Shown: positions 3,947 through 61,076 of the stretch, piece by piece
Position numbering within the stretch: the stretch's first letter is position 1
Layout of the letters: each line of letters starts with the position of its first letter
Assembly: GCF_026586795.1 (NCBI RefSeq)
Contig: NZ_JAPFGY010000019.1
Location: 1-64,000, forward strand
Direction of reading: 5' to 3'
Source: Erythrobacter sp. WG
GTDB lineage: Bacteria > Pseudomonadota > Alphaproteobacteria > Sphingomonadales > Sphingomonadaceae
Length of the DNA: 64,000 nucleotides
Made by a program: the position numbers and the translations under genes
Notes under the pieces: generated by a model
What the model was told of the DNA's origin: nothing
The model's database searches: none
Seen by the model: the letters and a program-made list of their open reading frames with translations, nothing else

Positions 3947-3967
3947 CCCCCGGGGTTGACCCGGGGG
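3947..3967. other. GC-rich hairpin upstream of the DUF6356 gene
   Basis: An 8-bp perfect stem (CCCCCGGG with CCCGGGGG, loop GTTGA) ends 24 nt before the ATG at 3992. It has no T-run on either side, so a terminator role is doubtful. It may sit in the leader of the downstream gene. Confidence 0.4.
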
Positions 3968-34519: not shown

Positions 34520-34543
34520 TCCGGCGTGGTTCTTCCCGTTCGC

Positions 34544-34605
34544 CTCGAGCGAAGTCGAGAGGCATTGCGCATCGGTGTCTCGACTGCGCTCGACACGAAC
34601 GGAGG
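34544..34605. repeat. Palindromic repeat pair (TCGAGCGAAGTCGAGA family)
   Basis: Two inverted copies of a ~27-bp element, CGTTCGCCTCGAGCGAAGTC... at about 34544 and ...CTCGACTGCGCTCGACACG up to about 34600, can pair into one long hairpin between pyrB and its partner gene. The distal copy runs into the ribosome-binding site (GGAGG, 34601-34605) of the next gene. A single further copy is at 58178. Confidence 0.75.
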
Positions 34606-57830: not shown

Positions 57831-57931
57831 GTCCGTTCGTCCTGAGCTTGTCGAAGGACTGTTCTTCTTCAACGCGTTACGCGCCGGACTCAAGGAAAGT
57901 GCGGCCCTTCGGCAAGCTCAGGGCGAACGGC
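57831..57931. repeat. Inverted pair of CCTGAGCTTGTCGAAGG-type repeats
   Basis: The left copy (57831-57859, with CCTGAGCTTGTCGAAGGAC) and the right inverted copy (57903-57931, with GGCCCTTCGGCAAGCTCAGG) form a hairpin with a ~43-nt loop. Further single copies lie at 60325 and 60655. Confidence 0.8.
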
Positions 57932-58177: not shown

Positions 58178-58209
58178 GGGTGTCTCGACTTCGCTCGACA
58201 CGAACGGGA
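58178..58209. repeat. Single TCGAGCGAAGTCGAGA-type repeat
   Basis: GTGTCTCGACTTCGCTCGAC followed by ACGAACGG is a self-complementary element; related copies form the pair at 34544-34605. Confidence 0.75.
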
Positions 58210-59357: not shown

Positions 59358-60311
59358 TCATCGATCACTATGGCGCAGTTGGTCGATCAGCGTGGCCATG
59401 TCTTGCGGACAATCGCTCCGGAACAGGACATTCTCGCCGCTGACCGGGTGGACGAACCCCAGCTGCGCCGCGTGCAGCGCCTGACGGGCGAAGCCGAGTC
59501 GCTCGAGGACCGGGCGCAGGGACTTGGGGGTGCGGCCATAGGCAGGGTCTCCCAATAGCGGATGGCCGATTGACGCACAGTGAACGCGCACCTGGTGGGT
59601 ACGGCCGGTCTCCAGCCGGCATTCGATCACGGCGCTTCCATCGAGCCGCTCGAGGGTTCTGTAATGGGTGATCGCCGATTTGCCGCGCGAGGAATTGTTG
59701 GGGAGCACGGTCATTTTCTTTCGGTCGCCGTCCGACCGGCCAAGCCGCGCGTCGATGGTGCCTTGCGCGGGCGAGGGGTGCCCGGCGCAGACCGCGAGAT
59801 AGCGGCGGTGGACGGTGTGCGCGGCGAACTGCGCGGCGAGCCCCTCGTGCGCGGCGTCGGTCTTGGCGACCACCAGCAGCCCCGAGGTGTCCTTGTCGAT
59901 GCGGTGCACGATCCCGGGCCGGGCGACGCCGTTGATGCCCGAGAGCTGCCCCCGGCAGTGGTGGAGAAGCGCATTGACCAGGGTGCCGGTAAGGTTCCCC
60001 GCCGCCGGATGAACGACGAGGCCCGCAGGCTTGTCGACGACGACGAGGTGCGCGTCCTCGAAGGCGATGACCAGCGGGATCGCCTCCGGCCCTGCTGCGG
60101 CCGGCGCGGCTGGGGGGACGTGAACCGCGAAAGCCGTGCCCGCGGCGACCTTCGCGGATGGGGAGGTGGCGGGCCTGCCGGCGATCTCGACCCGCCCGTC
60201 CTCGATCAACCCCTGCACCCGCGCGCGGCTGAGCCCGGTCGCTTCGGCCAGCGCCTTGTCGAGGCGGGCGGGGGCTTCGATGGTGCCGGTGATGATTTCG
60301 CTGCTGGACAC
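59358..60311 (-). CDS. RluA/RluD-family pseudouridine synthase
   Basis: A 317-aa rRNA pseudouridine synthase. An N-terminal S4 RNA-binding domain (RLDKALAEATGLSRARVQGL) precedes the catalytic domain with the Asp-bearing motif VHRIDKDTSGLLVVAKTD, and the block VECRLETGRTHQVRVH-like sequence confirms the family. S4 plus this catalytic core suggests RluD (23S rRNA positions 1911/1915/1917 in E. coli), but RluC cannot be excluded. It is followed by rpoH and divergent from the GIY-YIG/JAMM gene. Confidence 0.9.
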   Translation of the reverse strand: MSSSEIITGTIEAPARLDKALAEATGLSRARVQGLIEDGRVEIAGRPATSPSAKVAAGTAFAVHVPPAAPAAAGPEAIPLVIAFEDAHLVVVDKPAGLVVHPAAGNLTGTLVNALLHHCRGQLSGINGVARPGIVHRIDKDTSGLLVVAKTDAAHEGLAAQFAAHTVHRRYLAVCAGHPSPAQGTIDARLGRSDGDRKKMTVLPNNSSRGKSAITHYRTLERLDGSAVIECRLETGRTHQVRVHCASIGHPLLGDPAYGRTPKSLRPVLERLGFARQALHAAQLGFVHPVSGENVLFRSDCPQDMATLIDQLRHSDR

Positions 60312-60324
60312 GCAGCCCCTCTAA

Positions 60325-60352
60325 CCGTCCGCCCTGAGCTTGTCGAAGGGCC
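60325..60352. repeat. CCTGAGCTTGTCGAAGG repeat, left flank of GIY-YIG segment
   Basis: A 27-28-bp copy (CCGTCCGCCCTGAGCTTGTC and on) just upstream of the GIY-YIG start. It is nearly identical to the reverse complement of the copy at 60655, so the pair brackets the nuclease-coding segment. Confidence 0.85.
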
Positions 60353-60374
60353 GTCTTTCACTTAGCCCACCTGG

Positions 60375-61076
60375 ATGGGGTTCTGGGCCTATATGCTCCA
60401 CTGCCGCGGCGGTGTGTTCTACGCGGGTCACACCGATGACCTCGAGCGCCGGATTGCGCAGCACAAGTCCGGCACCATTCCGGGCTTCACAAGCGAGCGC
60501 TTGCCCGTCGAGCTTGTCTGGGCACAGGAATTTCCCACCCGCCACGAAGCCAAGGCCGCCGAACTCAGGATCAAGGGCTGGTCGCGCGCGAAGAAGCTGG
60601 CGCTGATCAGGGAGGACTGGGACGCGATCTCAAGGTTGGCGAAGAGGAAGGGCAGCCCTTCGACAAGCTCAGGGCAGGCGGAGATAGAGGTTTCCGCTCA
60701 GGCCCTCGCCGCCATGCGTGCCGCCGCCGCCGCCGCGCATCCGCATGAGGCCTGCGGCATCCTGCTCGGCGAGGGCTCGCGCATCACCGAAGCGCGCGCG
60801 GCGCGCAATGTCCACCCCGCGCCCCGCACCCACTTCGAGATCGACCCTCAGGCGCTGATCGACGCGCACCGCGCGGCGCGCGGCGGAGGGCCGCAGGTGA
60901 TCGGCTACTTCCACTCGCACCCTTGCGGCCCCGCCGCCCCCTCCGCCACCGACCGCGCCTGCGCGAGCGGGGACGGGCGGGTGTGGGCGATCCTCGGCGA
61001 ACCGGACGCCGTGACGTTCTGGCGCGACGGGGAAGCGGGTTTCACCGCACTTCCCTTATGCCTGACGGACGGTTAG
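60375..61076 (+). CDS. GIY-YIG nuclease domain fused to JAMM/MPN metalloprotease domain
   Basis: A 233-aa two-domain protein. Residues 1-90 are a compact GIY-YIG nuclease (MGFWAYMLHCRGGVFYAGHT, catalytic R25-like Arg in LERRIAQH, E58-like Glu in RHEAKAAELRIKGW). Residues 105-233 are a JAMM/MPN+ domain with E125 (HEACGILLGE), H180, H182 and D193 (HSHP then SATD), a complete zinc motif typical of RadC-like or ubiquitin-like isopeptidase/Rhodanese-linked bacterial enzymes. The linker GSPSTSSGQA (93-102) is the translation of a dispersed repeat (60655-60680), so the fusion arose by repeat insertion in frame. The JAMM half is followed by chpT after 9 nt. Confidence 0.85.
   Translation: MGFWAYMLHCRGGVFYAGHTDDLERRIAQHKSGTIPGFTSERLPVELVWAQEFPTRHEAKAAELRIKGWSRAKKLALIREDWDAISRLAKRKGSPSTSSGQAEIEVSAQALAAMRAAAAAAHPHEACGILLGEGSRITEARAARNVHPAPRTHFEIDPQALIDAHRAARGGGPQVIGYFHSHPCGPAAPSATDRACASGDGRVWAILGEPDAVTFWRDGEAGFTALPLCLTDG
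60655..60680. repeat. Repeat copy inside the coding region (fusion joint)
   Basis: GCCCTTCGACAAGCTCAGGG plus GCAGGC, in inverted orientation to the copy at 60325. It is translated in frame as SPSTSSGQA between the two domains. Confidence 0.88.

Follow-up and report, generated by a model that had tools for sequence, protein, structure and literature searches.

How a small GIY-YIG nuclease gene came to lie between two inverted repeats, joined in frame to a JAMM metalloprotease gene, is the question raised by a locus near the end of the window, that is, the whole 64,000-nt stretch of Erythrobacter sp. WG DNA that was analysed. The first-pass annotation had described two near-identical arms in opposite orientation around a GIY-YIG segment, the second of them translated in frame as a linker to a JAMM domain with an intact E-HxH-x10-D motif, and had read the whole as a mobile cassette that landed at the JAMM gene. 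Its description of the locus was confirmed. The arms are inverted copies with 24 of 26 bases identical, and they belong to a longer, imperfect inverted repeat of 44 nt (60316-60359 and 60647-60690, 80% complementary). A complete single-domain GIY-YIG gene lies between them and its frame remains open through the right arm, where it reads PSTSSGQA, into the JAMM domain, with the stop at 61076. The JAMM motif, inspected by eye in the translation, is intact, and we take E-HxH-x10-D to be the JAMM signature of this domain. The features of the locus are the following:

57832..57931, no strand assigned: short family-A dimer without a gene, the common form (cores 57841-57857 on the minus strand and 57906-57922 on the plus strand)
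59358..60311, minus strand: rluD (pseudouridine synthase), the other neighbour of the insertion site (PF00849, 8.4e-36)
60325..60352, minus strand: left REP arm of family A, with the core CCTTCGACAAGCTCAGG on the minus strand and the head CCG(T/C)TCG outward
60375..60650, plus strand: single-domain GIY-YIG nuclease (Pfam PF01541, 1.8e-14, conserved columns present)
60375..61076, plus strand: fused open reading frame of GIY-YIG nuclease, REP linker and JAMM domain (233 aa, open)
60655..60680, plus strand: right REP arm of family A, whose in-frame translation is the linker SPSTSSGQA (extended repeat 60647-60690)
60684..61073, plus strand: JAMM/MPN (Prok-JAB) metalloprotease domain (PF14464, 4.2e-24)

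The nuclease meets the criterion for membership of the GIY-YIG superfamily, namely a PF01541 domain with the conserved Y, R and E. Y16, G18, R26 and E63 are all present, and presumably have a catalytic role. By sequence, the nearest solved structures are the UPF0213 proteins PDB 1zg2 and 1ywl (1.3e-12), and NCBIfam provided no name for the protein. The predicted structure of the fusion consists of two confident domains and a linker (residues 91-100, the translated REP) with pLDDT below 50, and the best structural match of its JAMM part is P. furiosus JAMM1. No in-frame ATG, GTG or TTG occurs from 60648 up to 60714, a position that is already inside the JAMM part. Since the relevant frame of the REP is free of stop codons, translation of JAMM is predicted to begin at the nuclease start and to yield a fusion with a flexible linker.

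REP families and nuclease genes in one genome

What the first-pass account lacked is that the arms belong to a repeat family spread over the whole genome, commonly in the form of a short dimer. The 17-nt core of this family, designated family A (CCTTCGACAAGCTCAGG), occurs in 50 copies with at most 2 mismatches in the 3.31-Mb genome, and its reversed control in 2. Among 30 copies that were fetched (0-1 mismatch), 20 had a head-outward partner within 120 bp and so form short dimers, and two of the 10 without a close partner are the window element's own arms. The 16 distinct short dimers follow one common layout, in which an outward CCGTTCG head is followed by a hairpin stem, a pyrimidine-rich inner flank, a short centre and the mirror image of these parts, with cores spaced 55-65 bp. 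When single-stranded, such dimers fold into long hairpins. The window element shares their ends and, as judged by eye, has similar inner flanks, with the difference that 324 bp separate its cores and that the gene occupies the centre. Thus, the criterion for a REPIN or MITE relationship, short dimers with the ends of the gene-bearing element, is met by 16 dimers, with the reservation that inner flanks were compared by eye. The criterion for the CGTC REP superfamily (CGTC head, CCA tail, head-outward dimers) is not met by family A, whose head is CCGTTCG and whose tail has no CCA.

Other REPs were noted in the window: a family-A dimer at 57841-57922, a CCCCGGG-type copy at 3948-3966 and, for a family with the pattern TCGAGCG-AGTCGAG, a dimer at 34536-34602 and a solo copy at 58184-58207. 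An inverted repeat arising by chance or from low complexity was ruled out by the reversed-core control and by the control positions in related loci described below.

The genome contains five GIY-YIG matches, one of which lies in a 700-aa frame and was taken as uvrC. All four non-UvrC genes are bracketed by inverted arms, each belonging to another REP family (30-44 nt, 80-100% complementary). uvrC has no comparable arms, its best bracketing pair being 27 nt long, 78% complementary and 1140 nt apart. With the patterns used, the four families number 50 (family A), 140 (TCGAGCG-AGTCGAG), 24 (CGTCATTGCGAG, exact pattern) and 20 copies (CCCCGGGCTTGACCCGGGG), and reversed-pattern controls for the last three gave 0 matches. 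Head-outward dimers are present for two further families of this genome. The third gene (L003, C19:35686-36157) is placed between two complete dimers and not inside one, the innermost pair of repeats facing inward and the outer pair outward.

Genomes that contain REPs usually have more than 100 copies of them (PMC2817692), and for the GTAG class a RAYT transposase has been proposed as partner. Of the criteria for a RAYT REPtron, an enzyme gene flanked by dispersed inverted REPs is met here. A Y1/HUH tyrosine transposase and GTAG-tagged REPs are not, the heads being CCGTTCG or CGTC. No Y1_Tnp (PF01797) match at E 0.001 was found in the 58 contigs of this genome, and 5 of 14 control genomes do match the same profile. 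On these grounds, a RAYT encoded here was rejected as the REP mobiliser.

Repeats around related genes and their pairing with protein lineage

A scan of genome contigs provided 80 related GIY-YIG loci (clade A), mostly from Sphingomonadales, with a few in records named Rhizobacter, Thiobacillus, Pseudoxanthomonas, Rehaibacterium and Myxococcales. Counting either orientation, 58 of these loci had the family-A core within 300 bp upstream, 61 had it downstream and 49 had it on both sides; in the orientation seen in the window, the corresponding numbers were 57, 56 and 46. The background in these loci was 59 copies in ∼1290 kb of flank more than 1 kb away. The upstream core also keeps a common distance, starting 39-47 bp before the gene match in 50 of the 80 loci. 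When inverted matches were scored without reference to any known repeat, 56 of 77 clade-A genes were bracketed at a score of at least 18 (the remaining three loci had too little flank), and none of 1399 control positions taken from these loci was. The same de novo test bracketed 26 of 39 other sphingomonad GIY-YIG genes at a score of at least 18 compared with 0 of 326 controls; this sample comprised 40 loci hand-picked, one per genome, among the matches listed, and one of them (L182) remained unscored. The arms of this second group are largely CGTC...CCA repeats, and many of the non-A families meet the CGTC superfamily criterion given above. Hence, single-domain GIY-YIG genes distant from clade A are often found between other REPs, and the link between nuclease and repeat that the first-pass annotation had suggested counting is present well beyond this locus.

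The association does not extend to the whole superfamily. Of the best 29 phylum-wide PF01541 matches scored (a thirtieth, L227, was skipped), 9 were bracketed at a score of at least 16 and 20 fell below it. We therefore discarded REP linkage of every GIY-YIG gene; many single-domain genes probably do something else, and the link covers part of the superfamily. Longer, two-stem arms, possibly a compound REP, were observed at the clade-A genes of L061 (e.g. CCGTTCGTCCTGAGTAGCCATTGAGCTTGTCGAAATGGCGTATCGAAGGAC) and L242.

Conservation of the nuclease itself was high. Y16, R26, H30 and E63 were invariant in 98 of 98 aligned GIY-YIG domains, and dN/dS values of ∼0.06-0.13 in nine nuclease pairs, both fused and unfused (some with saturated dS), point to purifying selection. 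On a tree of these 98 domains, four REP types required 5 changes, the minimum being 3, compared with a mean of 31.6 after shuffling, and none of 200 shuffles gave a number as low. Within the non-A (CGTC) subset there were 3 changes compared with 12.5 after shuffling. REP types were assigned by pattern and subsequently by hand, and the tree omits loci below score 16 together with L181 (two types), L182, L220, L233, L238 and L243. Because gene and arms are physically linked, this congruence may reflect common descent without recognition.

Copy number offers a test that is partly independent of that linkage. Of 147 genomes surveyed in the order, 30 have a clade-A gene and 117 lack one; a count of at least 8 family-A copies is reached by 23 of the former and 16 of the latter. 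Within the family the figures were 19 of 25 compared with 15 of 61 (P = 1.8e-5, kinship uncorrected). Counter-examples exist in both directions. Seven of the 30 genomes with a clade-A gene hold fewer than 8 copies, one of them none, and three genomes hold many family-A REPs without a clade-A match (135 copies in G086, 68 in G096 and 44 in G108), for which recent loss, an assembly gap or another enzyme are possible explanations. Across the order, Y1_Tnp showed no association with family-A copy number (odds ratio 1.1, P = 0.81), and it was accordingly set aside as a driver of these REPs. Copies of the CGTCATTGCGAG family number 25-66 in G000, G023, G108 and G141, the four genomes that have a typed gene, and at least 25 copies occur in 13 of the 147 genomes. 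One genome, G027, holds 76 copies of this type-III REP while its sole GIY-YIG gene among the matches listed is of type I; the other high counts are in genomes whose GIY-YIG genes were not all typed. Taken together, relatives with a different repeat for each enzyme lineage make GIY-YIG enzymes good candidates for the missing spreader of a large REP class.

Turnover at the rluD-JAMM site and gene fusions

A cassette that had landed at the JAMM gene should have left relatives with an empty site, a comparison that the first-pass annotation had proposed. A JAMM match was found in 89 of 99 genomes of the family. In the best 30 of these 89 loci, the nuclease was present between rluD and JAMM in 4 and absent in 26; in 16 of the empty loci the spacer is a compact 16-19 bp, and 22 have an ATG in frame close to where JAMM starts. 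The cassette is found at this site in 11 of the 80 related loci, six times in the JAMM direction and five times inverted. On a host tree of 40 rows, from which L188 was left off, the states empty, same direction and inverted need 10 changes, and for filled versus empty at least 6 changes are forced by the starred branches of a quick tree. This alternation indicates recurrent gain, loss or recombination, plus inversion. Two gene-less loci at this site, L187 and L190, retain a lone REP or an apparent half dimer (the latter in L190). The JAMM junctions lack part of the usual spacer, and no target-site duplication was seen by eye at rluD-JAMM. Neither outcome that would have refuted the cassette reading, a fused gene without repeats throughout the order or the lack of any GIY-YIG-repeat link elsewhere, occurred. 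The reading is thus supported by the empty sites and the repeat link, and has to be modified in one respect: the cassette is no recent peculiarity of this one genome, as it recurs at rluD-JAMM in both orientations and at many other sites.

Grouping the 80 loci by shared neighbours on both sides gave 33 clusters, seven with at least two loci (15, 12, 11, 6, 5, 3 and 2) and 26 singletons; the number of sites is overstated because short contigs stand alone and the two rluD-JAMM orientations were counted apart. The rluD-JAMM, rnc-era and tyrS-DOMON sites were defined by their neighbours, and the names DOMON-like, tyrS, rnc and era were assigned by reading the sequences. At rluD-JAMM, the fused frame is open in all nine JAMM-directed loci, including the window, L195 and L198 (L188 and L038 are the same genome), and in the inverted cassette the nuclease is fused to RluD instead in 4 of 5 loci, on which basis a conserved partnership of JAMM and nuclease was rejected. 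At one recurrent site, GIY-YIG is fused in frame to a SpoU-type RNA methylase in 15 of 15 loci (L061, L068, L073, L074, L079, L082, L084, L090, L093, L094, L096, L109, L111, L112 and L113), ten of which have no in-frame ATG, GTG or TTG between the domains. Outside sphingomonads, fusions to a MeaB GTPase (2 of 2, in two Rhizobacter records) and to a TadA-like deaminase (1 of 1, Pseudoxanthomonas) were found; in these three loci (L077, L086 and L101) candidate start codons are present in the linker. Because the SpoU, MeaB and TadA-like partners were picked after the fused frames had revealed them, their combined 18 of 18 carries an upward bias. Fusion to the DOMON-like gene was seen in 6 of 12 loci and to era, at the rnc-era site, in 0 of 12, so fusion is not a general rule. 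In 17 of the 28 fusions examined there is no in-frame ATG, GTG or TTG between the two domains. The host gene therefore seems to depend on the nuclease start at several sites, not at all of them.

The recurrent clade-A sites adjoin RNA-related genes (rluD, the SpoU methylase, rnc-era, tyrS and the TadA-like gene), although no expectation was computed for this. REPs have also been described inside pseudouridine synthase and tRNA synthetase genes by Di Nocera et al. (2013, PMC3733652).

A proposed nuclease-based REP element, its rivals and known systems

We consider it probable, with appreciable room for doubt, that the nuclease gene and the REP arms on either side of it together form a single element, namely a REPtron in which a GIY-YIG nuclease takes the part of the RAYT and of which the short dimers are non-autonomous forms. 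The anatomy, the dispersal, the pairing of REP with lineage, the turnover and inversion at one site, the frame fusion and the selection follow from the sequence data. Weighing against this reading are the copy-number counter-examples, the physical linkage of gene and arms, the incomplete spacer at the JAMM junctions with no target-site duplication visible by eye, the many unbracketed genes among the phylum-wide matches and the dependence of fusion on the site. Cleavage and mobilisation of the REPs by the nuclease are inferred, since no cleavage, binding or movement was observed. In the mechanism that we propose, the nuclease would recognise the hairpin of its own REP family, probably while this is single-stranded, either at a replication fork or in the course of DNA uptake, and would nick it; repair or rejoining of the cut ends might then copy or invert the element and spread short dimers, which would be internally deleted, non-autonomous forms moved in trans. 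At rluD-JAMM, the element would have replaced the JAMM start codon. Such start-codon capture is an inferred means of persistence that may protect the nuclease from loss, because any stop or frameshift arising in the nuclease would also shut off the gene joined to it.

The main rival inverts the order of events: REP dimers came first and a homing-type GIY-YIG endonuclease, targeting the dimer, invaded the centre of one, so that dimers are landing sites and not offspring. The position of the gene in a dimer centre fits this well, as do the many REP copies with a single bracketed gene per family in this genome, the persistence of family-A REPs in genomes without a clade-A gene and the apparent half dimer without a gene in L190. 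Homing alone, however, explains neither why copy number tracks the matching gene nor why each protein lineage has its own REP type, unless the nuclease also spreads REPs, and we regard it as unlikely, while keeping it under serious consideration. Less likely still is a function resembling that of Ssn enzymes, in which the nuclease would act on single-stranded DNA at the repeats to limit or steer natural transformation, the repeats being marks and any movement incidental. It does not predict that the gene lies within a repeat pair at a common distance, that it is gained, lost and inverted time and again, or that a single genome has one enzyme for each repeat family, even if the common superfamily, the purifying selection on the nuclease and the long single-strand hairpins of REP dimers agree with it, as does the placement of the Neisseria dRS3 repeat in the CGTC-1 family by Di Nocera et al. 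(PMC3733652).

Two further explanations retain almost no weight. REP hairpins could be common ornaments of genes that gather round small dispensable ones, with the nuclease an unrelated passenger; REPs are indeed abundant, and a role in transcription termination has been hypothesised (PMC3733652). This was already made unlikely by the control positions (0 of 1399 and 0 of 326 bracketed at score 18), by the common upstream spacing of the core and by the way REP type tracks protein clade, and we now find it very hard to sustain. Nor do we see much in favour of a domesticated two-domain enzyme, selected for a joint role of GIY-YIG and JAMM. It would account for the fused frame in 9 of 9 co-directional loci, window included, and for the conservation of both domains, but the inverted cassette joins the same nuclease to RluD (4 of 5), the partners elsewhere are a SpoU-type methylase, MeaB, a TadA-like and a DOMON-like protein, and the linker is essentially the translated repeat; the chance that it is correct seems slight.

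Returning to the nuclease-based REPtron, a broader form of it can be put forward only tentatively, as we would not quite wager on it: single-domain GIY-YIG nucleases would be the missing autonomous partners of the CGTC and CCGTTCG REP superfamilies, as ∼350-bp elements with an REP alphabet of their own, several per genome, which would give rise to short dimers in trans, invert where they stand and, at some sites, be maintained through start-codon capture (JAMM, SpoU-type methylase, RluD), where loss of the nuclease would cost the host a gene. If small GIY-YIG nucleases do fill this role, the enzyme-repeat pairs can be read off from each genome, four of them in the present case, and short oligonucleotides could serve to test the claim. 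For a selfish element, start-codon capture would be an uncommon defence against deletion; it would also explain GIY-YIG fusions to unrelated housekeeping domains through REP-encoded linkers such as PSTSSGQA.

Among the matches listed from the open-access literature, as far as titles and the beginnings of abstracts reveal, no paper ties GIY-YIG to REP, REPIN or RAYT, and the family-A core sequence appears in no paper of the open-access literature searched. The available part of RepRanger 2025 (PMC12306157) makes no mention of a transposase or endonuclease, and a 2024 MITE review (PMC10969869) none of GIY, endonuclease, REPIN or CGTC. The closest parallel in organisation is RAYT/TnpA-REP with its REPINs, which has in common with the present element an enzyme gene flanked by inverted REPs, dispersed head-outward dimers and a lineage-specific pairing of enzyme and REP (PMC2817692, PMC3116915). 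It differs in its Y1/HUH transposase and GTAG REPs; the window element has a GIY-YIG nuclease, no GTAG tag and its gene inside the dimer. With regard to the repeats, the CGTC-tagged REPs of Di Nocera, De Gregorio and Rocco (2013, PMC3733652) have the CGTC head, CCA tail and head-outward dimers seen around many non-A GIY-YIG genes, as well as an alphaproteobacterial bias; this class, to which Neisseria dRS3 and Rickettsia RPE-4 and RPE-6 belong, is most prevalent in Alphaproteobacteria. No associated transposase gene is reported for them in that survey, whereas the associated genes here are GIY-YIG. Family A of the window departs from them in its CCGTTCG head and the lack of a CCA tail.

On the side of the enzyme, the UPF0213 GIY-YIG proteins mentioned above are the closest by sequence among solved structures. 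GIY-YIG homing endonucleases (I-BmoI, Seg type) have the catalytic fold and motif in common with the window nuclease, and spreading by DNA cutting is the analogy; the window element differs in having repeats at both ends, and neither an intron or intein nor a separate DNA-binding domain was seen in it. The Ssn family (Neisseria NTS) is reported to consist of GIY-YIG site-specific single-strand nucleases, the Neisseria enzyme being paired with a repeat of hundreds of copies. The likeness is that of a small GIY-YIG nuclease paired with a multi-copy genomic repeat, and the Ssn family thus probably anticipates the nuclease-repeat pairing. If this holds, enzyme-repeat pairing in the GIY-YIG superfamily is known in kind, and the present work adds how the element is built, which REP classes take part, the coexistence of four pairs, the flipping and the inferred capture of start codons.
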